DNA of 45,483 nucleotides from the IMG/VR virus record IMGVR_UViG_3300020027_000017, positions 1 to 45,483 of that record. One strand, written 5' to 3'. How positions within the stretch are numbered: position 1 is the stretch's first letter; each line of letters opens with the position of its first letter. Source of the DNA: a virus. The notes beneath the pieces are model-generated. The model searched no databases, was not told the origin of the DNA, and saw only the letters and a program-made list of their open reading frames with translations. Shown piece by piece: positions 11,043 through 38,873 of this stretch. The translations under genes were made by a program, and so were the position numbers.

Positions 11043-12230
11043 CTATAGCAAGTCGACTGCGGCGCGCGTCTCTGTCGGCGACAGGTGCGCATAGCGCAGT
11101 ACCATCGTCATTGAGGCATGCCCTAGCAGCTCCCGCACCGTGTTCAGCGCGACGCCTTTCTGCACTAGCCGCGATGCGAAGTGATGCCGCATATCATGCC
11201 AGCGGAACCTCGTAATCTTGGCGGCCCGCAGCAGGGCTTTCCATGCAGTCTTGAAACCTCCGGCGAATGGAAACGCGCGCTCAGTGTCAGTCGCCTCTGC
11301 CTGCCAGGCTTTCAGGATCTGCATAGCCTCAGAATTGAGCGGGATGTGTCGAGTCTGGCCGCTCTTAGTGAGGCCTCCCTCTAGGGTTAGCACGCGCTGC
11401 CGGAAGCCGATGTTTTCCCATCGCAGCGACAGCAACTCGCCTAGGCGCATCCCAGTATTCAGCGTCAGCAGCACAGCCGGCGTCAGGTGATCGCCGTATA
11501 TGCGCTCGCTCGCTGCAGACTCGCGCTGACGTCGCATGCGCTGCGCATCAGGCGTCAGGCTGGCAGATATCATGCGCACGTCGCGGGCCGTCAGCGCAGC
11601 GCGTAGGCGGGCCTCCTCTGCCTCATTGAGGTAGCGCACCTTAGGGTTACGATCTAGCTTCGGTTTATCGACGTCACGTATCGGGCTGCATTCGAGTTTG
11701 CCTGCCTTCACGGCCCTGCGCAGCACTCCGGCGAGCGATTCAACGTTGCGCCGAATCGAGGAGGGTTTGTAGCCGTCCTCGACTTGAGTGCTCATCCACT
11801 TATCGATGAGGGCAGCGGTGATATCGGTAAGAGGGTAGGCGTCCCATTGTGCGAAATGTTGACGCACCGCATACATCGTCTTAGCGCGGGTGCGAGGCCG
11901 GTGCAGCTTTAGCCAGGGTTCGTATATTTCATCGATGAACTGCCTTAGCGTCACTGCGCCCTCGATGAACCCCGACATGGCGGGCCTGCCCAGCTTGACG
12001 TTGCTGACGATTGTCCTGCACCGCTCGCGGGCCTCATCAGGCGTCAGCTGCCCGACGCGAGCAATGCGGATCCTGCGTTTGCTCGTCAGTCGAGCGTAGT
12101 AGGTACGAACCCCTGAGGGTTGCACCCTGAGCATGAATCCTCTGAGTCGCGAGTCCTGAATCTCGAACGGTTTTGCTCTAGGTTTTGCCTCGTCACTGCT
12201 GAGCAATCGAGCGCTGATTACCATCGGCAT
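11043..12230 (-). CDS. int: Tyrosine integrase
   Basis: The 395-residue product has the three parts of a phage tyrosine recombinase. First is an N-terminal DUF4102-like arm-binding region (about 1-85, with the DxRLRGFMLRV core). Second is a core-binding SAM-like domain (about 92-185). Third is the catalytic domain, with Arg262 in TGMRLGELLSLRW, Lys289 in TKSGQTR, His345 and Arg348 in WHDMRHHFAS, His371 in LLGHAS and the nucleophile Tyr380 in RYAHLSP. All catalytic residues are present, so it should be active. GGAGG lies about six bases before the ATG. The gene reads away from attP (12401-12439), and its promoter overlaps three repeats that may be its own arm sites. Confidence 0.97.
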   Translation of the reverse strand: MPMVISARLLSSDEAKPRAKPFEIQDSRLRGFMLRVQPSGVRTYYARLTSKRRIRIARVGQLTPDEARERCRTIVSNVKLGRPAMSGFIEGAVTLRQFIDEIYEPWLKLHRPRTRAKTMYAVRQHFAQWDAYPLTDITAALIDKWMSTQVEDGYKPSSIRRNVESLAGVLRRAVKAGKLECSPIRDVDKPKLDRNPKVRYLNEAEEARLRAALTARDVRMISASLTPDAQRMRRQRESAASERIYGDHLTPAVLLTLNTGMRLGELLSLRWENIGFRQRVLTLEGGLTKSGQTRHIPLNSEAMQILKAWQAEATDTERAFPFAGGFKTAWKALLRAAKITRFRWHDMRHHFASRLVQKGVALNTVRELLGHASMTMVLRYAHLSPTETRAAVDLL

Positions 12231-12798: not shown

Positions 12799-13034
12799 AG
12801 ATAGGAACTGTGGAAAAACTTAAGCTAAATCTCGCAGAGATAGTCGAGATTACAGGTGAATCTCTGAGCGTAATTCACGACGCAATCAACGCGGGGCACC
12901 TCGATACATTCCTTGTCGGGCGCCGGAGATTCGCGAGGCCTGTAGCAGTGAGGCTATGGGTAGATTTTCTAGAGCGAGAAAGCAAGGCGGGCCGGCCTGT
13001 CTGCTACAGAGCGCGAGCGCGAGCGCGCTCCTGA
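12795..13034 (+). CDS. Small HTH protein, excisionase candidate
   Basis: I use ATG 12795, overlapping the upstream TGA. The 79-residue product has LAEIVEITGESLSVIHDAI, then AGHLDTFLVGRRRFARPVAV, the winged-HTH layout of MerR/AlpA/Xis-type proteins, then a basic tail. Small size, closeness to integrase and attP, and opposite orientation fit a recombination directionality factor. That role is inferred. Its last 31 bases overlap the 3' end of the convergent MT-A70 gene. Confidence 0.65.
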   Translation: MKIGTVEKLKLNLAEIVEITGESLSVIHDAINAGHLDTFLVGRRRFARPVAVRLWVDFLERESKAGRPVCYRARARARS

Positions 13035-13573
13035 TGAGTTGCAGGAGCCTCGTTACCCCACGACTGCCATCCGCTGCGGGTGTTTCTAGCGAACATCTCA
13101 AGCCGAGGGCCATCAACAACGGACTCTATGTATTCATAGAAAATGTGCGGCTTTTGACTGTGTTTAAACACTTTAGCCGCAACAATGTTATGCCTCAGAG
13201 ATCTAAATGCCTTTACTCTGCCTCGCACTCCGAATAGAACATGCTCTGTGTGGCCGCGAAACCAGTACCCCATTCCTTTGCAACGCAGTTTGTGCCAGGT
13301 AAGCATCGTTTTATATTTGAACCCCCATGCATTTAGCGTAGCTAATGCGTCTGGAAGCATCGGCACGGTAGTCCACATAAAGCACACAGAATCGCGAGCG
13401 GCACACTGCGCGATAGGTAGCGCCTTTATTTCATCTAGACTCATGACGTCGTAGTAGTCGCTAGCGCCGTTACAATAAGTAGGCCGCCGCGATCCGGTTG
13501 GGGATGTAAATTTATAGCTCCAAGGAGGATCGGCATAGATGACGCGATACTCCTTACCAATATGTTCTTTCAT
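13004..13573 (-). CDS. MT-A70 family adenine N6-methyltransferase
   Basis: The 189-residue protein carries DPPW at 15-18 (YADPPWSY), the catalytic motif of MT-A70/beta-class N6-adenine methyltransferases. The other family blocks are also present: DEIKALP, FMWTT, the WGFKYKTMLTWHK strand and GHTEHVLFGVRG. Length fits phage members of the family. It methylates adenine in DNA (family knowledge; target site unknown) and probably shields phage DNA from restriction. It is last in the leftward early operon and runs into a convergent gene. Confidence 0.9.
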   Translation of the reverse strand: MKEHIGKEYRVIYADPPWSYKFTSPTGSRRPTYCNGASDYYDVMSLDEIKALPIAQCAARDSVCFMWTTVPMLPDALATLNAWGFKYKTMLTWHKLRCKGMGYWFRGHTEHVLFGVRGRVKAFRSLRHNIVAAKVFKHSQKPHIFYEYIESVVDGPRLEMFARNTRSGWQSWGNEAPATHQERARARAL

Positions 13574-22374: not shown

Positions 22375-22911
22375 ATGACGCAGGGAAGCGCTGCAGACGC
22401 GATCGTAAACCGGGCGCTAGATAGCCTAATCCCGTACGCGCGCAACGCTAGAACGCACTCAGACGCGCAGGTTGCGCAGATTGCAGCGTCGATTCGCGAG
22501 TTCGGATTCACGTCGCCAGTCCTAGTCGACAGCGCCGGGACAATCATCGCCGGCCATGGGCGAGTCATGGCAGCTCGGCAGCTCGGGCTACAGACAGTGC
22601 CCACAATCTGTGTCGGTGACTGGAGTGACGCGCAGCGCCGCGCCTACATTATCGCGGATAACAAGCTGGCGCTTAACGCAGGCTGGGATCACCAGCTACT
22701 TGCTATCGAACTTGACGAATTGCGCGAGCTGAAATGGGATATGGATCTGTTGGGGTTCGAGGCGTCCGAGTTAAACGAGCTGATAGGTACGCCGAACTTC
22801 GGGCCTAGTAGCGCAGATGAGCAGGGCAAGCTCGATGCGCTTGCAGAAAAGATTGTGCAGTGTCCGTTTTGCAGTCAGCGATTCGATGTCAACGCCCTCC
22901 CTAAGGATTGA
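22375..22911 (+). CDS. ParB-like nuclease-domain protein with C-terminal CxxC
   Basis: The 178-residue protein has the ParB N-terminal core: SLIPYARNARTHSDAQVAQIAASI, FGFTSPVLVD, TIIAGHGRVMAARQLG and ADNKLALNAGWD. This domain often precedes a methyltransferase in phages; here the methylase part is missing. Residues 160-178 end in CPFCSQRFDVNAL, half of a zinc finger. It overlaps the Mom-like gene by 26 bases, which suggests coupled translation and a joint role in modification. Confidence 0.8.
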   Translation: MTQGSAADAIVNRALDSLIPYARNARTHSDAQVAQIAASIREFGFTSPVLVDSAGTIIAGHGRVMAARQLGLQTVPTICVGDWSDAQRRAYIIADNKLALNAGWDHQLLAIELDELRELKWDMDLLGFEASELNELIGTPNFGPSSADEQGKLDALAEKIVQCPFCSQRFDVNALPKD

Positions 22912-27106: not shown

Positions 27107-27824
27107 GCAACGGGCGTTCCCTCTGAACGTCAAAGACATTCAGGAGGCCGGCACGTTCAGCGGCTATCTAAGTGTATTCGACGTCATCGATTCGTATAGA
27201 GAGGTAGTGGCGCCCGGCGCGTTTCGCAGCACGCTATCAAAGTGGACGGAGAAAGGCAGACTGCCGCCGCTGCTTTGGCAGCACCGCTCAGGCGAGCCGC
27301 TCGGCCCCTTTACTCGCATGGAAGAGGATAAGCGCGGGCTGTATTTCGAAGCGCAGCTACTAGTCAATGACATCGCGCGCGCGCGCGAGGCGTATGCGCT
27401 GCTGAAAAACAAAGTCATCGGCGGCATGTCGATCGGCTTCTCTATCAACCCTGATGGCGAGGAATACGACAGCCGCGCCGGGGTAGTTGTTTTGCGTGAC
27501 ATCGATTTGTGGGAGGGCTCGTTAGCGACATTCCCTGCAAACGAGGCAGCGCAGGTATCAGACGTTAAGGGCCGAGAGTTTATCGAGCGTATCCGCGCAT
27601 CGACTGAGCGCGGGAACCTCCCGACGATTCGAGATTTTGAGGACGCAATGCGAGAGGTATTCGCGTTCAGCCGAGACAAGGCGAAGGCACTGGCCAGCCT
27701 GGGGCTCGGGCAACTGCAGCGAGAGGCTGGCAGTAAAGAGGCAAGTCCGACACTGGCCGAGATCTTAGAGGCCGTGAAGCAATTGCCAGACATTCAATCT
27801 TTACTAAAAGGTAACTCGCAATGA
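27090..27824 (+). CDS. Prohead protease, HK97 family (U35)
   Basis: The 244-residue protein has GTFSGYLSVFDVIDSYREVVAPGAF, then His65 in LLWQH, Ser114 in GGMSIGF and Glu142 in DLWEGSLATFPAN. These are the catalytic residues of the HK97 U35 protease, which matures the capsid by cutting the scaffold and capsid N-terminus. The C-terminal 70 residues are a helical scaffold-like tail. ATGA overlap with the capsid gene. Confidence 0.93.
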   Translation: MTQQNKQRAFPLNVKDIQEAGTFSGYLSVFDVIDSYREVVAPGAFRSTLSKWTEKGRLPPLLWQHRSGEPLGPFTRMEEDKRGLYFEAQLLVNDIARAREAYALLKNKVIGGMSIGFSINPDGEEYDSRAGVVVLRDIDLWEGSLATFPANEAAQVSDVKGREFIERIRASTERGNLPTIRDFEDAMREVFAFSRDKAKALASLGLGQLQREAGSKEASPTLAEILEAVKQLPDIQSLLKGNSQ

Positions 27825-29023
27825 CTCCTGAACAGCAGGCACTGATTGATGGCATTAAGGCCGCGATGAAAGAACGCGATGCGGAAACGCTCGTGGTACT
27901 GAAGAAAACTGCCGAGGATGTAGAGAAGTTCGGCAAGATTCAGGAGGGCACCAAGGATGCAATCGCCACCCTGAATACCAAGGGCCAGGAACTGCATGCG
28001 CGCCTGTCGGAAATCGAACAGAGCGTTGCAGGCCTGAAGGCTGCAGGCCCGAGCAAGCCTGAGCAGGAGAAGAGCTACGGGCAGCAGTTCGTAGAGTCTG
28101 AAGAGTGGAAGGCCTTTGCCAAGCGCGGCGGCAGTATCAAGCATACGTCCGAGCCGTTCCGTGCGAAAGCTATCACCTCGATTGCAGGCAGCGGTGCTGC
28201 AGGTATCTGGAGCGATCGCCTGCCAGGCGTCATCGAGGAGCCGCTGCGTCCGCTCAGCATTCGAGACTTGCTCGATGTCGGCCGCACCACGAGCAACCTC
28301 ATCGAGTATATCCGGGAGCTTGTGTATACGAGCAATGCGGATGTAGTCAGCGAAGGCACGCTTAAGCCTGAGTCAAACATCACGTACGAACGTGCGGATT
28401 CGCCGATTCGTACCATCGCGCACTGGATTCGCGCTACTCGACAGGTACTCGCAGACTTCCCGCAGCTGCAGTCTCTGATCAACGGGCGCCTGCGATGGGG
28501 CCTGAAGATTAAGGAGGAGAATGAGATTCTCCTCGGTGACGGCACCGGCGAGCATCTGCTCGGCTTGATCCCTCAGGCGACGGACTACAACACGGCTCTA
28601 AACAAGTCGGGCGATACGATGATTGACGTTATCCGTCACGCGCTGCTGCAGGTAGAACTCGCGTTCTATCCTCCGTCAGGAAGCGTGATGTCTCCGACTG
28701 ACTGGCATAACCTCGAACTGACGAAAGACAACGAAAACCGCTACATGATGGCATCGCCTATGGCGCGTACGCCACCGATGCTGTGGGGTTATCCCGTCGT
28801 CAGCAGCCACGCGATGACGCAGGGCGGATTCCTCGTCGGTGCGTTCCGGCTCGCCTCGACGCTGTGGGATCGCGAGGAATTTTCGATCATGGCCAGCACT
28901 GAGGATCGCGATAACTTTGTGACGAACATGGTTACGATCCTCGGCGAGGAGCGCCTCGGCCTCACTGTCTACCGTCCGCGTGCATTCGTTTACGGTAACT
29001 TCCCGATCGGCAGCACTACCTGA
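27821..29023 (+). CDS. Major capsid protein, HK97 fold
   Basis: The 400-residue protein has an N-terminal coiled-coil delta domain (about 1-95), expected to be removed by the protease, then a mature region starting near the KSYGQQFVESEEWKAF stretch. SIRDLLDVGRT, YERADSPIRTIAHWIRATRQVLAD, LLGDGTGEHLLGL and the closing FVTNMVTILGEERLGLTVYRP match HK97-type capsid proteins. The gene is followed by a terminator at 29047-29072. Confidence 0.93.
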   Translation: MTPEQQALIDGIKAAMKERDAETLVVLKKTAEDVEKFGKIQEGTKDAIATLNTKGQELHARLSEIEQSVAGLKAAGPSKPEQEKSYGQQFVESEEWKAFAKRGGSIKHTSEPFRAKAITSIAGSGAAGIWSDRLPGVIEEPLRPLSIRDLLDVGRTTSNLIEYIRELVYTSNADVVSEGTLKPESNITYERADSPIRTIAHWIRATRQVLADFPQLQSLINGRLRWGLKIKEENEILLGDGTGEHLLGLIPQATDYNTALNKSGDTMIDVIRHALLQVELAFYPPSGSVMSPTDWHNLELTKDNENRYMMASPMARTPPMLWGYPVVSSHAMTQGGFLVGAFRLASTLWDREEFSIMASTEDRDNFVTNMVTILGEERLGLTVYRPRAFVYGNFPIGSTT

Positions 29024-29046: not shown

Positions 29047-29079
29047 GGAGCTGCGGACTGCAACGCAGCTCCTCTTTCT
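29047..29079 (+). terminator. Intrinsic terminator after the capsid gene
   Basis: A 9-bp stem (GGAGCTGCG 29047-29055 with CGCAGCTCC 29064-29072) has an 8-base loop and is followed by TCTTTCT. It lies in the 67-base gap between the capsid and the next gene, so capsid mRNA can be made in excess. A smaller hairpin (CCCG/CGGG) precedes it. Confidence 0.75.
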
Positions 29080-29090
29080 AAGGTTGAAAT

Positions 29091-29387
29091 ATGCCTCAAT
29101 ACGTAGCGCTAAAGACGTTTCTGGGACGGTACGGAACGATGCACAGGGGCATGACGTACACGCTTCCCGACGGATACGGGCGCGATCTAATGCACAACGG
29201 CCTAGTGCGCCTGATGTCTAGGGATCACGCACCGGTGAACGCTGCTCATGCGGAGGCCCCAGTAAAGTTGGGGGAAGGTACGGAGGCCCGGCAGGGCGAT
29301 GGGACGGCGCTACCGTTGTCTGTATTGCTTCCGGCCCGTCCCTCACTGAGGCGGACGCTGACTACGCGCAATCGCGGGCCAAAGTAA
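29091..29387 (+). CDS. Small protein after the capsid; probable frame break
   Basis: The first 60 residues (MPQYVALKTFLGRYGTMHRG...YGRDLMHNGLVRLM) look like a genuine small protein, possibly a head accessory protein. After about residue 60 the frame turns Arg/Leu-rich and loses protein character, while the -1 frame becomes protein-like from about 29280. Either the protein ends early by chance or it should fuse to the next frame. An AAGGTTG ribosome site lies before the ATG. Confidence 0.55.
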   Translation: MPQYVALKTFLGRYGTMHRGMTYTLPDGYGRDLMHNGLVRLMSRDHAPVNAAHAEAPVKLGEGTEARQGDGTALPLSVLLPARPSLRRTLTTRNRGPK

Positions 29388-29881
29388 TCACGATCAATTC
29401 GAGCTATGCGCGCGCGCGTGATGCAGATGTCCTGTATGCGTGCGACTGGCGTTGGTGGAATCACTACATAGGGCAGGTGCGCAAGTCCTTTGCCGGGGAA
29501 CTGTGGACTTGCTCAGAGCAGGCGCGCGATGAGTTCGGCCTCTACTGGATTCGAGGAGCGCCTGGCGATGGGATCGCGCCGGATCCTGACACTATCCTGC
29601 ACGGGATGAATAGCGGGCATCAGGCGATCAACCTCGCGTGCATTTTCGGGGCCTCGCGCATCTTGCTGCTCGGTTACGACTGCATGCATACCGGCGGCAA
29701 ATCACACTGGCACGGCGATCATCCTAAGACGCTAGGTAACGCTCGATGCGTCGGGCAGTGGGCTCGGGGGTTCGCTCGCCAGGCAAAGGATGCAGCGCTG
29801 CGAGGTGTCGAGATAATCAACTGCAGCCGCGCGACAGCGCTTACGTGCTTTCGACGCAGCATCATTACCGAGTGCATCTAA
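29222..29881 (+). CDS. DUF115-like protein lacking a start codon (first gene of island)
   Basis: This frame opens after a TAG at 29219-29221 and contains no ATG, GTG or TTG until 29477. The protein-like part begins near WDGATVVCIASGPSLTEAD and continues with VITINSSY, DVLYACDWRWW, MNSGHQAINLA, ASRILLLGYDC and GGKSHWHGDHP, which match a DUF115-like family often linked to glycosylation. Translation must enter by a -1 shift from the 29091 frame, from a rare start, or not at all if a base has been lost. No slippery heptamer is evident; a G5 run at 29270-29274 is one possible site. Confidence 0.5.
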   Translation, partial: GSRTGERCSCGGPSKVGGRYGGPAGRWDGATVVCIASGPSLTEADADYAQSRAKVITINSSYARARDADVLYACDWRWWNHYIGQVRKSFAGELWTCSEQARDEFGLYWIRGAPGDGIAPDPDTILHGMNSGHQAINLACIFGASRILLLGYDCMHTGGKSHWHGDHPKTLGNARCVGQWARGFARQAKDAALRGVEIINCSRATALTCFRRSIITECI

Positions 29882-30507
29882 TGAAAGGCTGGGACTGGAG
29901 CAAGTTTAAGGGTAGTCAGGCCTGCCTAAAGTGGGCGCGTCGCAACCTTGAAGCGCTCGAAAAGACGCTGCCGCTAGTGTCTGCGCGCAAGGCCTGTGTG
30001 CAGGCGGGGGGCAACCTCGGAATATTCCCGAAGTGGCTGGCTCAATATTTTGAGATTGTTTACACGTTCGAGCCTGAGCAGGAACTGCATAAGCTGCTAA
30101 AGCTGAACGCACCGGAAAATAACATCCTCTGCATGAATGCAGCACTAGGAGATACGACAGAGCCGGTGCGTATGGCGTGCACGCGCCGCGATGACTCGGG
30201 GCGCGCTGTGCATGAGGGCCTGACGCACGTAGCTGGGCCGGGAAATGTTCCGTGCCTGCGTCTAGATGACTTGCGCCTGAATGAATGCAATCTCTTGTAC
30301 CTCGATATCGAGGGCTGGGAGTATCGGGCGCTGATCGGTGCTCGCGAGACGATTGATAGGTGCCGCCCGGTGATAGGTGTCGAGATAAACAAAAACATTT
30401 CGTACACAGGCCGAAGCGGTGACGAGCTGCGCAAGCTGATCATCTCGCACGGCTATCAGCTCGCCCTCACAGTGCAGTCCGATGAAATCTATACCCCCGC
30501 ATTCTGA
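29881..30507 (+). CDS. FkbM-family methyltransferase
   Basis: I use ATG 29881, overlapping the upstream TAA by one base. The 208-residue product has ACVQAGGNLGIFPKWLAQYF (SAM motif I), VYTFEPEQELHKLLKLN (motif II), NNILCMNAALGD and LLYLDIEGWEYRALIGA (motif IV, D-x-E-G-x-E). FkbM enzymes usually O-methylate sugars or polyketides; here the substrate is probably a glycan made by the neighbouring glycosyltransferases (inference). Confidence 0.85.
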   Translation: MKGWDWSKFKGSQACLKWARRNLEALEKTLPLVSARKACVQAGGNLGIFPKWLAQYFEIVYTFEPEQELHKLLKLNAPENNILCMNAALGDTTEPVRMACTRRDDSGRAVHEGLTHVAGPGNVPCLRLDDLRLNECNLLYLDIEGWEYRALIGARETIDRCRPVIGVEINKNISYTGRSGDELRKLIISHGYQLALTVQSDEIYTPAF

Positions 30508-31213
30508 GCAGGCAGCGTATGACGCAGCTTTCAATCGAGCGCGCGCCGTTGAATACCCAGAGCTAGATCGCTTAGAGCAGCTCGCAGGCTACGCGGTTGA
30601 TCGCGCGCGACTAGAGAGTGCAGCGAGGATTCTGCAGTGCCCGATCAAAGCGAACGCGCCGAACTGGCAGCACGGGCGCGTTCTATATACGCTCGCGCGT
30701 CAATACATCGCGTGGCAGAAAGTCCCGACTATCTTTCTCGATATCGGCACCGCGAAAGGGTTCTCGGCGTGCGTCCTATCGTGGGCGATCGCGGATGCAG
30801 GCGCTGCGCACCGCGTCATCTCTATCGATGTAGTAGAGCCTGACACGTTCGTAAAGCGTAACAGCGTTGTAGAGTGCGAGCGCCTGATGACAGTGCAACA
30901 GTTCGTAGCGCCATTCATCGCCGCGCAGGTGTCCGTAGAGTTTCTCGGTAGAGGCTCAGCAGACTGGCTCATAAAAGCGCCTCGCGATACGCATATCGGC
31001 CTCGCGTTCATCGACGGCAAACATACGTTCCAGTCGGTGACGCTGGAGGCGCTTTCGATTGCCAAGTTCCAGTGTCGAGGCGACGTGATGGTATTTGACG
31101 ATACCCAAATCCCTGACGTAGGCCGCGCCACGATGCAGCTGCGCAACTATCGCCGCGACGGTATCTATCTGTCAGGGGCGCATCGCTCCTACTGCGTAGC
31201 CGTCAAGTGCTGA
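30482..31213 (+). CDS. Class I SAM-dependent methyltransferase
   Basis: The 243-residue protein has TIFLDIGTAKGFSACVLSW (motif I), RVISIDVVEPD (motif II) and GLAFIDGKHTFQSVTLE with VMVFDDTQIPDV, the pattern of Methyltransf_24-type enzymes. It overlaps the FkbM gene by 26 bases and the next glycosyltransferase by seven. The substrate is unknown; a sugar is likely from context. Confidence 0.8.
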   Translation: MKSIPPHSEQAAYDAAFNRARAVEYPELDRLEQLAGYAVDRARLESAARILQCPIKANAPNWQHGRVLYTLARQYIAWQKVPTIFLDIGTAKGFSACVLSWAIADAGAAHRVISIDVVEPDTFVKRNSVVECERLMTVQQFVAPFIAAQVSVEFLGRGSADWLIKAPRDTHIGLAFIDGKHTFQSVTLEALSIAKFQCRGDVMVFDDTQIPDVGRATMQLRNYRRDGIYLSGAHRSYCVAVKC

Positions 31214-31851
31214 CGGTTGCGTGCGTATACGTGAAAGGGCATGTTGCCTTTACTCAAGAGTACGTAAAGCGTCTGCACTCAATGGCGCGGCGCTGCATCG
31301 CCCGCCCGTTCGAGTTTGTCTGCCTCACTGATCAGCCCCATCAGATGCCTCGCGGCGTGCGAGCAATCCCGATCAGGTTGCCGTATCGCTGTAAAGGATG
31401 GTGGGCGAAAATCGAGCTATTTAAGCCAGGCAGATTCGGAGGGCGCGTTCTGTATCTCGACTTAGATACGCTGCTGCTCGGGCCGCTCGATGACATCATT
31501 GATTACAACGCAGAGTTTGCGCTAGCGCCAGACGGTGCCCCGAACTTCAAGGGCGGCGAGGGCCTTGCTGTAGTCAAGCGCTATAACTCCAGCGTGATGG
31601 TTTGGGATTGGGATTTTGCACCTGAGCTTTACAGGCGCTGGACTCCTGCGGTAGCGCGCCGCCTATGGGGTGATCAGGACTGGATCGGCGAGCAATGCCC
31701 GGACGCAAGCATCATGCCTGCAGAATGGTTCCCTCGACTGAGTATCGCGCGCGAGCGCTGGCCGCAATCTGCAAAAGTGGTGCTGTGCAAAGCGCCTAAA
31801 AATGCAGCAGCGGCTCTGCATTGGAGCTGGTTCGAGGAGATGTGGAAATAA
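31207..31851 (+). CDS. Glycosyltransferase, GT8-like (first copy)
   Basis: Starts at GTG 31207. The 214-residue protein has TVACVYVKG, FEFVCLTDQ, WWAKIELFKPG, VLYLDLDTLLLG (DxD, the metal/sugar-nucleotide site) and FNSSVM-like YNSSVMVWD, followed by GDQDWIGE. This is the GT-A fold GT8-like plan. It is distantly like the product at 32596-33306, probably an old duplication. Confidence 0.8.
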   Translation: MLTVACVYVKGHVAFTQEYVKRLHSMARRCIARPFEFVCLTDQPHQMPRGVRAIPIRLPYRCKGWWAKIELFKPGRFGGRVLYLDLDTLLLGPLDDIIDYNAEFALAPDGAPNFKGGEGLAVVKRYNSSVMVWDWDFAPELYRRWTPAVARRLWGDQDWIGEQCPDASIMPAEWFPRLSIARERWPQSAKVVLCKAPKNAAAALHWSWFEEMWK

Positions 31852-32603
31852 TGGGCGCACCGGGATTCGATGACGCACCGATGACGTGTTTGGCACCCTC
31901 GGGAAGTTTCACGCCTATAACATTCTGCTATCCGTACTACGAAAACGCAGGATTTTTGCGCGAGCAAGTACACGTCTGGAATAACTATCCTGACGAGTTG
32001 CGCCGCCACCTGTCAGTCAACATTGTAGATGACGGCTCGCCTGATCATCCTGCAGCTGACGTGCTGCGAGACATGCGCTTGCGCTTTACTGTTCGGCTAT
32101 TCCGCATCGGCGTGGACGTTCGTTGGAACTGGCTTGCAGCTCGAAACATCGCAGTTAATTACGCGCATGATTGGTGCCTGCTCACGGACATGGATCATGT
32201 GGTTCCGCAGGAAACGCTGCGCGCGATCATTTGTAGCAGGCTATCCAGCAATGTCATTTACAGATTCAGCAGGCGCGAGCATACAGGCGAGGTGATACAC
32301 CCGCACCCGAATAGTATGCTGATGAGGCATGCAACGTTCTGGCGCGTCGGAGGGTATGACGAGGCGCTGTCGGGACACTACGGAACAGACGGGGATTGGC
32401 GCAGGCGCTGCGCAGCGACTGCCCCTGTGTTTACGCTTCCGTGCCATCTGCTGCGCTACGAGTACCAGGGCGACAGCTCGACTACGCATTACCTGCGCAA
32501 GCAACCTGAGGATGCAGGCAAAAAGGCAATCATCGCAAAGCGCGGGCCGGGCTGGCGTCCTAAGGTGCTGTCGTTTCCTTACGAGGAGATAATCATTGCT
32601 TAG
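31851..32603 (+). CDS. Glycosyltransferase, family 2
   Basis: ATG 31851 overlaps the upstream TAA by one base. The 250-residue product has TPITFCYPYYENAGFLREQV, VNIVDDGSPDH (nucleotide-binding DDGS) and WNWLAARNIAVNYA with LLTDMDHVV (DxD), then WRVGGYDEALSGHYGTDGDWRRRC (ED-like acceptor region). These are the GT2 landmarks. It may add the second or third sugar of a short glycan. Confidence 0.85.
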   Translation: MGAPGFDDAPMTCLAPSGSFTPITFCYPYYENAGFLREQVHVWNNYPDELRRHLSVNIVDDGSPDHPAADVLRDMRLRFTVRLFRIGVDVRWNWLAARNIAVNYAHDWCLLTDMDHVVPQETLRAIICSRLSSNVIYRFSRREHTGEVIHPHPNSMLMRHATFWRVGGYDEALSGHYGTDGDWRRRCAATAPVFTLPCHLLRYEYQGDSSTTHYLRKQPEDAGKKAIIAKRGPGWRPKVLSFPYEEIIIA

Positions 32604-33306
32604 GGTAGTGACGTGGAAGTGGAAGCCTCTGCAAGGCTACCGCAGCACGTTCCTTGCAGCGCACGTAAACATCCTGCGCAATATGGTTGCGCGTCACTAC
32701 AAGCGCCCTCATGAGTTCGTCTGCATTACTGATGACGCGGAGGGTATCGATGCAGACATTCGAGTGATCCCGCTTTGGGATGATCACTCTACGATCGTAA
32801 GCCCGCACCGCCCGACGAGTCCTAGCTGCTACCGCCGACTGAAAGCATTCAGCGCTGAGGCAGCAGACATTATCGGGCCTCGATTCGTCAGTCTGGATTT
32901 AGACACGGTGGTTACGGGGGATCTGTCGCCGTTGTTTGATCGCGAGGAGGATTTCGCGATCTGGGGCGATACCGCACCGCGCACCTGGTACAACGGGAGC
33001 TTTTGGATTCTCACTGCAGGAACCCGCACGCGGGTGTGGACTGAGTTTGATCCGAAGCGATCACCGGCCATAGCGAAAGCATCCGGGCAACTCGGCAGTG
33101 ATCAGGCGTGGATCGGCTACTGCCTCGGCCCGCACGAAAAAAAACTCAGTCAGCGCGAGGGTATCTATTCATGGCGGGTGCACATTGAGCCGCGCGGCGG
33201 TGCGCTACCTCGCGGCTCGCGGTTGGTTATGTTCCACGGCCACACGGATCCGTGGATGCCTCACATTCAGCAAAAGCACAGCTGGATTCGCGAGCACTAT
33301 AGGTAA
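32596..33306 (+). CDS. Glycosyltransferase, GT8-like (second copy)
   Basis: Starts at TTG 32596, overlapping the upstream stop. The 236-residue protein has HEFVCITDDAEGI, YRRLKAFS, FVSLDLDTVVTGDLSPLF (DxD), TWYNGSFWIL and GSDQAWIGYC, then a C-terminal VMFHGHTDPW (the H-G-x-x-KPW-like end of GT8 enzymes). Last gene of the island; head-tail genes resume six bases later. Confidence 0.82.
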   Translation: MLRVVTWKWKPLQGYRSTFLAAHVNILRNMVARHYKRPHEFVCITDDAEGIDADIRVIPLWDDHSTIVSPHRPTSPSCYRRLKAFSAEAADIIGPRFVSLDLDTVVTGDLSPLFDREEDFAIWGDTAPRTWYNGSFWILTAGTRTRVWTEFDPKRSPAIAKASGQLGSDQAWIGYCLGPHEKKLSQREGIYSWRVHIEPRGGALPRGSRLVMFHGHTDPWMPHIQQKHSWIREHYR

Positions 33307-33311
33307 TCATC

Positions 33312-33623
33312 ATGCTTACGCTGCTGGAAGTGAAAGAACATCTGCGAATTGAGCCGGAGAATACGACGCAGGATGATTACCTATCGCGCCTGAAGGCAAG
33401 TGCGGAAGCCTGGGCCTGCAGCTTTCTCAATGTCGACTCTCTGGAGGAGTTCGATAGCGACAGTAGCCCGCCTGCAAGTCCGTTCAGGCTGCCGGAGGAT
33501 CTGAAAACAGGGCTGCTGTTTCACGTCGAGGCAGTGTATCACCGAGACGAAAAAATGATGCAGCTGCTGCTAGACAGGGCCGAGTGGTTAGTAATGCCGT
33601 ACCGCAAACAGATGGGCGTATGA
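33312..33623 (+). CDS. Head-tail connector, gp6-like
   Basis: This 103-residue helical protein begins LTLLEVKEHLRIEPENTTQDDYLSRLKASAEAW, the standard opening of phage gp6-like adaptor proteins (PF05135) that bind under the portal. The usual position directly after the capsid gene is here displaced by the 4-kb sugar island. Confidence 0.88.
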   Translation: MLTLLEVKEHLRIEPENTTQDDYLSRLKASAEAWACSFLNVDSLEEFDSDSSPPASPFRLPEDLKTGLLFHVEAVYHRDEKMMQLLLDRAEWLVMPYRKQMGV

Positions 33624-37843: not shown

Positions 37844-38275
37844 ATGGCATCTGAAGATACCTTGATCGGTAATGAGTTTCGCTTTCAAGTCGGAAACGGG
37901 GCCTCGCCAGAAACGTTTGCAAATATGTGCGCCACAGTCGAGGCGAGCGGGCTCGGTGAGGAGTCGCCTCTAATCGATACGACTGCACTTTGCGACGCTG
38001 CGCGCATGTATCGGCGCGGCCTGCCGGACGGCCTAGAAGTGCCGCTGTTGGTTAATTTCATCCAGGGCGATGAGCAGATACAGAATCTGTACCTCGATTA
38101 CAAAGCGAAAACAGTTCGCAACTTTCGAATGGTGATCGCGGATTCTTCGCCAGAAGAGTACGTCGAGTTTTCGGCGATCATTCGAGGCTGGAGCCTCGGC
38201 GCGCCTGTCGGCGAAAAATCCACGATGACGTTTACGCTAAAAGCAACCGGGGAAGTTAACTGGGTGTTTGCATGA
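37844..38275 (+). CDS. Major tail tube protein
   Basis: This 143-residue protein is beta-rich, with EFRFQVGNGASPETFANMCATVEASG at the start and FTLKATGEVNWV at the end. It has the standard size and position (after the terminator, before the chaperone pair). AGGAG lies before the ATG. Confidence 0.82.
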   Translation: MASEDTLIGNEFRFQVGNGASPETFANMCATVEASGLGEESPLIDTTALCDAARMYRRGLPDGLEVPLLVNFIQGDEQIQNLYLDYKAKTVRNFRMVIADSSPEEYVEFSAIIRGWSLGAPVGEKSTMTFTLKATGEVNWVFA

Positions 38276-38538
38276 GCAGATTCACGCTTCAATCCGAGAC
38301 TATCGAGATACGCGGGCAGACGCTTACAGTGCGCGAGCTGACGGATAAGCAGAAAGGGCAGTGGGCGAAAGCGGTAAGCGACGATGTTTATTGCGCGCCC
38401 TCTATGCTCGTCTCGCTTGTCTGCTATCCGCCGGTGACTATCGAGGAGGCAGCAGACTGGCCCTCGCAGATCACCGCGCAGGTTGTGACGATAGCGCAGC
38501 GGCTGTCAGGTATGGGGGGCGACGAAAAAAACGCCTAA
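38272..38538 (+). CDS. Tail assembly chaperone, zero-frame product (G-like)
   Basis: This 88-residue product ends GMGGDEKNA. Located after the tail tube and before the tape measure, as lambda G. Near its end is the slippery A-AAA-AAC (38526-38532), which makes the longer G-T product. Confidence 0.85.
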   Translation: MSRFTLQSETIEIRGQTLTVRELTDKQKGQWAKAVSDDVYCAPSMLVSLVCYPPVTIEEAADWPSQITAQVVTIAQRLSGMGGDEKNA

Positions 38539-38873
38539 CGCCCGAGGAGATTTTCCGGTGCAGGATCGCACTGGGCCTCGGGCTGCTACCTAGTGAGGTG
38601 CAGGAGATACCGGCTAGCGATTACTCGATGCTGACGCGCTACTGGCTGCATGAGCCATGGGGTTCCTGGCGCGACAATCTGCACACAGCATTACTCGCCA
38701 CTGAGATACGCAGGCCGTATCTAAAGAAGGGCTCGCCTAACCCAATCGGGGATTTCATGCTCAGGCATCCCGACGAGCTGAGCGAGGAGCGCGCAGAAAA
38801 GAAGCGCAAGGCCTCCCGCAACCTGTTCAGCATGTTCAAATCGATCGCAAAAAAGAGGCCCCGCAATGGTTGA
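38272..38873 (+). CDS. Tail assembly chaperone, frameshifted GT product
   Basis: A -1 shift on A-AAA-AAC at 38526-38532 joins the first 87 residues to the downstream frame (RLTPEEIFRCRIALGLG onward), giving 200 residues. The T part ends in a basic tail (ASRNLFSMFKSIAKKRP). In lambda the GT form helps the tape measure assemble. The downstream frame has no good start of its own at the shift, supporting the join. Confidence 0.88.
38526..38532 (+). other. Programmed -1 frameshift heptamer
   Basis: A-AAA-AAC is a classic slippery heptamer in the correct phase (zero-frame codons GAA, AAA, AAC). Zero-frame termination follows two codons later at TAA 38536. I did not find a clear downstream pseudoknot by eye. 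Confidence 0.88.

Follow-up and report, generated by a model that had tools for sequence, protein, structure and literature searches.

A programmed −1 frameshift very probably joins a small capsid-adjacent protein to a DUF115-like glycosyltransferase domain in a broad group of HK97-like phages. We describe this arrangement in a 45,483-base virus genome, IMG/VR record IMGVR_UViG_3300020027_000017 (the window, analysed at its full length). There, a small open reading frame (ORF) and a DUF115-like frame begin a cassette of glycosyltransferase (GT) and methyltransferase genes between the major capsid gene and the head-tail connector. Sequence comparison reveals the frame arrangement, absent starts, slip motifs, similarity of fold and six-gene synteny, and the frameshift arrangement is common to about a hundred diverse phages, Pseudomonas phage D3 included. 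A preliminary description of the cassette had missed the −1 frameshift, the likely nature of the small protein and the relatives in D3, P1 and S20.

Reading frames and slip sites

The DUF115 frame of the window lacks a usable start of its own. Listed simply as a DUF115-like frame in the preliminary description, it is not a free-standing gene: it is open from 29222 to 29881 and holds no ATG, GTG or TTG until 29477, inside the catalytic domain and well past the invariant SGPS motif. It is instead reached from the small ORF, which overlaps it and continues past the SGPS motif in the other frame, placing DUF115 in the −1 register. The same startless, overlapping arrangement occurs in loci L007 and L008, whose DUF115 sequences are 79–81% identical to that of the window. 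Because a nucleotide search of a phage collection gave no matches, all comparisons were made at the protein level. The loci, collected for their sequence similarity, do not sample phages at random, and the metagenome contigs among them come without hosts.

The −1 register is close to universal among capsid-adjacent relatives. It relates the small ORF to DUF115 in 110 of 111 of them: 80 of the 81 out-of-frame cases in a first set, all 24 genes of a held-out set that was fetched independently and scored by the same criteria, and 6 further cases. Six loci (three per set) seemed at first to have no recognised small domain; on inspection all carry it, in the −1 register. The sole relative with the pair in +1, L020 (6942–7917), reflects either +1 shifting or a sequence error.

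Missing starts go with proximity to the capsid gene. No ATG, GTG or TTG precedes the SGPS motif in 74 of 104 capsid-adjacent genes, whereas the same holds for only 4 of 53 copies located elsewhere (Fisher p 4e-15; the test counts genes <80% identical as independent, though shared descent makes that only partly true). Held-out genes behave alike (21/24 startless), and in 30 of 51 startless representatives even the weak starts CTG, ATT, ATC and ATA are absent before the first strand. Capsid-distant DUF115 genes, such as those of PAJU2 and P1, have their own starts.

The expected product also exists as a single gene. L061 and L062 (9821–10603) carry a natural fusion in which one reading frame, opened by an ATG 287 nt downstream of the capsid gene, spans the small domain and DUF115; an extra scan for natural in-frame fusions returned these two loci only. 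They encode directly, in nature, what frameshifting is expected to yield elsewhere. The split arrangement itself recurs in the cultured phages D3 and S20 and in isolate prophages of Bordetella, Achromobacter, Lysobacter, Halomonas and others.

Slip motifs are enriched in the zero frame. Across 63 representatives (<80% identical) we counted 40 zero-frame X_XXY_YYZ heptamers versus 8 and 5 in the other two frames. A zero-frame motif is present in 23 of the 24 held-out genes versus 7 and 4 in the control frames; control counts are inflated by A-runs that match several frames. Where a DUF115-frame stop lies near the domain, slippage is confined to about 36–60 bases, and these short intervals contain C_CCT_TTG (S20, L024, L084), C_CCT_TTA (L064), A_AAA_AAC (L023) or A_AAA_AAA (L060). 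D3 and its relatives L098 and L099 carry C_CCA_AAG about 36 bases before the motif; other representatives carry C_CC.U or C_CC.C tetramers, and G_GGA_AAA is also found among relatives. In E. coli, C_CC.A_AA.G is the most efficient frameshift motif, and the C_CC.U and C_CC.C tetramers shift above background (PMC4066793).

In the window, the most likely slip site is G_GGG_GAA (29270–29276). The window, L007 and L008 all place this heptamer 57 nt ahead of SGPSL, despite differing flanks. This site is weaker-looking and is the least certain part of the proposal for the window itself. Slippage there would give a predicted 263-residue trans-frame fusion of small-ORF residues 1–61 with the DUF115 domain. 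A search of the family for a conserved stimulatory RNA structure gave no clear signal.

A further pair of overlapping ORFs in the window (38272–38538 and 38361–38873), between the major tail protein and the tape measure, resembles a tail assembly chaperone frameshift pair. Given this pair, the phage may use two frameshifts.

Predicted folds of the two domains

The DUF115 domain, as modelled, shares the Maf/GT42 sialyltransferase-like fold. Its AlphaFold2 model (predicted local distance difference test score, pLDDT, 94) best matches the flagellin glycosyltransferase Maf (motility associated factor; 5mu5) with Z 16.4 and a root-mean-square deviation (rmsd) of 2.4 over 169 residues, yet at 14% identity. 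Maf, at 632 residues, is larger than the DUF115 domain and acts on flagellin. Next come the Campylobacter sialyltransferases CstI and CstII (Z about 12), well above unrelated folds. Polar, catalytic-type residues are invariant over 33 diverse DUF115 sequences (SGPS, N, D, NxG, GxD, HWHGxH). We use "DUF115-like" as a similarity label, the frame scoring below the gathering cutoff of Pfam PF01973 (MptE-like, formerly DUF115; 23.3 bits versus 34.6, E 6e-5).

DUF115 homologues occur in other settings too. Many islands (L009, L010, L011, L055, L056, L057, L015) hold a second, more distant DUF115 gene within the GT cluster. Depositors labelled the homologues in PAJU2 (ORF010; L187, 2489–3058) and Klebsiella phage Eowyn (L188, 2992–3564) "structural protein", possibly after detection in virions.

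The small protein is probably head-binding, judging from its modelled fold together with the position of its gene. Across related loci the small ORF aligns as one homologous family. In the AlphaFold2 model its first ~41 residues are well defined (pLDDT 93–95) and the remainder (pLDDT 45–66) forms a disordered tail. The folded part superposes on the C-terminal domain of phage lambda gpFI (2lsm; Z 5.2, rmsd 1.0 over 42 residues). NTL9 and GINS domains match it just as well, and YqbF (2hjq) is its top Foldseek match. The small ORF starts 67 bp after the capsid stop in the window and at a similar distance in relatives (median gap 72). This position adds weight to a gpFI-like reading; the lambda gpFI gene also directly follows the capsid gene. 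Work by Popovic in 2012 reportedly found that the gpFI C-terminal domain binds the head protein. A paper citing that work describes gpFI as a capsid chaperone aiding the terminase-procapsid interaction (PMC4493119). Unlike the protein described here, gpFI is a packaging chaperone without an attached enzyme, and we found no sequence similarity between the two.

The cassette and its conservation

The window cassette is compact and intact. After the capsid gene come the small ORF, the DUF115-like frame, an FkbM methyltransferase, an S-adenosylmethionine (SAM) methyltransferase, a GT8-like, a GT2 and a second GT8-like glycosyltransferase, and the Ad1 connector (Table 1). Profile searches of the products bore out the gene set of the preliminary description at this place, and its end-to-start packing holds as well: the genes overlap or abut, as in TAATG at 29879. 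Catalytic motifs are intact throughout (GGNLG, DIGTAKG, DLD, DMD, DLD). The FkbM enzyme exceeds curated profile cutoffs (PF05050, 66.7 bits versus 22.7; TIGR01444, 68.8 versus 37.7) and was the sole addition from an NCBIfam search of the products; the GT2 protein likewise exceeds its cutoff (PF10111, 31.1 versus 27.3). The two GT8-like proteins are paralogues (30% identity, E 9e-14). Their label stands on phrog_1962 ("glycosyltransferase") and DxD motifs, with no Pfam match to either.

Table 1. Features between the capsid gene and the connector of the window.
Feature	Position	Strand	Evidence
HK97-type major capsid protein	27821..29023	+	PF05065 4.8e-51; phrog_10 2.9e-65
Terminator-like hairpin between capsid and small ORF	29047..29072	+	9 bp, 7 GC
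Small ORF, 98 aa, zero-frame product	29091..29387	+	Folded N-terminal domain, disordered tail; family alignment
Candidate −1 slip site G_GGG_GAA	29270..29276	+	Zero-frame codons TTG GGG GAA
DUF115 / Maf- and GT42-like glycosyltransferase domain, −1 frame	29273..29881	+	phrog_4603 3e-52
FkbM-family methyltransferase	29881..30507	+	PF05050 3.7e-18; TIGR01444 6.5e-19; GGNLG motif
Class I SAM methyltransferase (Methyltransf_24; weak RMNT_CmcI)	30482..31213	+	PF13578 1.6e-10; PF04989 3.7e-5; DIGTAKG motif
GT8-like glycosyltransferase a	31207..31851	+	phrog_1962 2e-23; DLD motif
GT2-family glycosyltransferase	31851..32603	+	PF10111 2.1e-7; DMD motif
GT8-like glycosyltransferase b, paralogue of a	32596..33306	+	phrog_1962 2.1e-13
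gp6-like head-tail connector (Ad1), right border	33312..33623	+	PF05135 1.5e-6; phrog_40 5.7e-10

A conserved hairpin precedes the small ORF. Previously noted as a terminator, it is real and recurs in the capsid-small ORF gap of 51 of 59 relatives versus 8 of 59 shuffled sequences, followed by a T-rich tail in 32. It likely attenuates downstream transcription, and its conservation suggests that expression after the capsid gene is throttled.

The small ORF-DUF115 pair is a constant of this capsid lineage, and what follows it varies. In all 15 relatives whose capsid is ≥57% identical and whose sequence continues past it, the pair comes next after the capsid gene, so the expectation that head modules run directly from capsid to connector fails here. 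The stretch separating DUF115 from the connector ranges from no genes in D3 to at least six, and L008, L007 and L013/L018 repeat the window set exactly. Recurrence of the same genes in most relatives with no glycan on their virions had been named as evidence against a decoration role. On the first half of this, the pair does recur in all close relatives, and the full set varies.

The six genes DUF115-FkbM-Methyltransf_24-GT8a-GT2-GT8b stay together within head modules at two positions, one in each of two lineages. The second lineage (IMG/VR contigs L034–L048 and L134–L145) carries them in the same order or a permutation of it between Ad1 and Hc1/gp10; unlike in the window, its protease gene precedes the portal and its DUF115 gene has its own start. 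By this synteny, the six genes hang together as a functional unit and keep to head modules.

Elsewhere in the window, an integrase gene (11043–12230, minus strand; phrog_1, 1e-62) indicates that the phage is probably temperate. Other genes encode a DNA methyltransferase (13004–13573, minus strand; phrog_359) and a ParB-like/methyltransferase-associated protein (22375–22911, plus strand; phrog_620, phrog_498).

Comparison with known systems

Phage D3, which infects a laboratory strain of P. aeruginosa, offers a cultured relative of the arrangement. Its orf6-orf6.5-orf7-orf9 region shares the capsid gene, small ORF, −1 DUF115 with its C_CCA_AAG slip site, and Ad1 connector at the same place. It differs in having no GT/methyltransferase island between orf7 and Ad1; its methyltransferase, orf13, follows Hc1. 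The D3 frameshift is unannotated. The annotated start of orf7 (5951; L003, 3952–4410) lies past the SGPS motif, leaving the database protein without the beginning of the domain. Tetraselmis viridis virus S20 / SI1 shares the capsid gene, the small ORF, the −1 DUF115 (C_CCT_TTG) and a GT/methyltransferase island before the connector, but differs in gene number and order, has a second DUF115 and is distant in sequence (28–44%). In phage P1 (pmgO-pmgP-ppp-pmgQ), a DUF115 homologue lies near a glycosyltransferase gene, but it has its own ATG and stands away from the capsid gene.

Frameshifting in phage structural genes has precedents. The −1 frameshift of the tail chaperone G/GT gives a minor extended protein (PMC3711429), and a −1 frameshift joining a gpFI-like protein to the capsid protein (MHP) had been proposed for TP901-1 (PMC4493119). 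Both involve other genes; here the extension is a glycosyltransferase domain. A parallel in kind is the glycosylation of virions in mycobacteriophages, for which we know of no described frameshift-tethered enzyme. Phage-encoded glycosyltransferases have been proposed as capsid decorators in mycobacteriophages (PMC11256854).

Discussion

We consider it probable that programmed −1 frameshifting yields, in small amount, a GT fusion that docks on the head of the virion and modifies it, the downstream genes building and methylating a glycan. Past the capsid gene, ribosomes would read the small ORF, and most would stop at 29387, releasing a small, probably head-binding protein. A minority would slip back one base, likely at G_GGG_GAA, into the DUF115 frame and complete the fusion. 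The slip, together with the hairpin downstream of the capsid gene, would keep the enzyme dose low relative to capsid. The small domain would dock the fusion on the capsid or prohead, where the enzyme would put the first sugar on protein; the GT8-like and GT2 enzymes would lengthen the glycan, which the FkbM and Methyltransf_24 enzymes would methylate. We infer that the fusion is produced, that it binds the head and that a glycan on the virion head is the product, made from whichever donor sugars these enzymes use.

The virion head is the best-fitting target. The cassette's place in the head module, its synteny and the joining of its first enzyme to a capsid-binding-like domain fit head decoration, and we lean towards head glycosylation as the outcome. 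The earlier proposal of a virion decoration system is partly supported; fibre and DNA, two of its suggested targets, find no support. Fibre homologues accompany only the window, L007, L008 and L015 (a partial island), and many other complete islands have none. We rejected the fibre as a co-inherited target because it is not consistently linked to the island. As for DNA, the DUF115 fold is Maf/GT42 sialyltransferase-like, and profile searches matched no DNA glucosyltransferase family.

Several observations weigh against this proposal. The window heptamer is not classical, with perfect re-pairing for the P-site codon only, and downstream RNA structure is weak (mean folding z −0.69 versus −0.34 in controls). 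A potential start (GTG or TTG) lies about 60 nt ahead of the motif in part of the D3 group. Several small folds reach a Z similar to that of the gpFI match, and a Protein Data Bank sequence search with the small protein matched neither gpFI nor YqbF. The P1 homologue pmgO, which has its own start, is non-essential in the laboratory, as are its neighbours, making the enzyme no general assembly factor (PMC10695390). No sugar-nucleotide genes were seen.

The frameshift itself withstands two competing accounts. Metagenome assembly indels could have broken a single gene, and the GGGGG homopolymer at the window site invites the thought. We rejected this account, now nearly negligible, because independent close relatives, cultured phages and prophages of isolates all show the same register, with different slip sequences. 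Also very unlikely is independent translation of DUF115, whether ribosomes reinitiate or use a non-standard start, the −1 overlap then being a mere result of tight packing. An in-frame ATG, GTG or TTG does exist in 30 of 104 genes, and ATT or ATC codons occur within the motif region. Tight packing, however, is at odds with a single register in all but one of 111 loci, with startless representatives that lack even weak starts before the domain, with slip motifs enriched in the zero frame only and with the natural in-frame fusion.

Two other readings, the main rivals, accept the frameshift or the enzymes and place their function elsewhere. The fusion could mainly serve structure or assembly, a minor DUF115-extended form of a small head protein that is incorporated into the head like other frameshifted virion proteins, its activity secondary or lost. 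A head-module protein is indeed involved, and homologues bear the label "structural protein" in PAJU2 and Eowyn and "putative morphogenetic function" in P1 (PmgO). Those structural labels are of unstated basis, however, the catalytic-type residues are invariant and the gene travels with glycosyltransferases and methyltransferases. Non-essential pmgO, by analogy, fits decoration better than assembly, with the caveat that P1 is without the frameshift form. We regard the structural account as unlikely. About as unlikely is a cassette that modifies host surface sugars, for instance in receptor or O-antigen conversion against superinfection, with its head-module site giving merely late co-expression. 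GT2, GT8-like and CmcI-like enzymes are frequent in surface polysaccharide pathways, the phage carries an integrase, and D3 is serotype-converting, through other genes. Host modification would nevertheless leave unaddressed why the enzyme is joined by frameshift to a capsid-adjacent domain and why two lineages keep the cassette among late head genes, at two positions, and profile searches of the island products found no flippase or polymerase.

Decoration of the head by a frameshifted enzyme would extend two known themes. Each is already documented: phage structural genes are known to use frameshifts, and phages to encode glycosyltransferases. Glycosyltransferases are common in phage genomes, and to our knowledge their route to virion proteins is unexplained. 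We found no report of a frameshift linking a glycosyltransferase to a phage structural gene in the openly licensed literature, including PMC5009743 and PMC3711429. In its most general form, the proposal is that a conserved, unannotated −1 frameshift in D3-type and many other HK97-like phages sets the ratio of free chaperone to Maf-like GT fusion, delivering a protein-glycosylating enzyme onto the phage's own capsid during assembly; for that full statement we judge the chances evenly balanced. If true, D3 orf7 and probably many prophage "alpha-2,3-sialyltransferase" genes are truncated in databases, without their first strand and SGPS motif. An enzyme tethered by frameshift to a head-binding domain would then be a direct route by which glycosyltransferases reach virion proteins.

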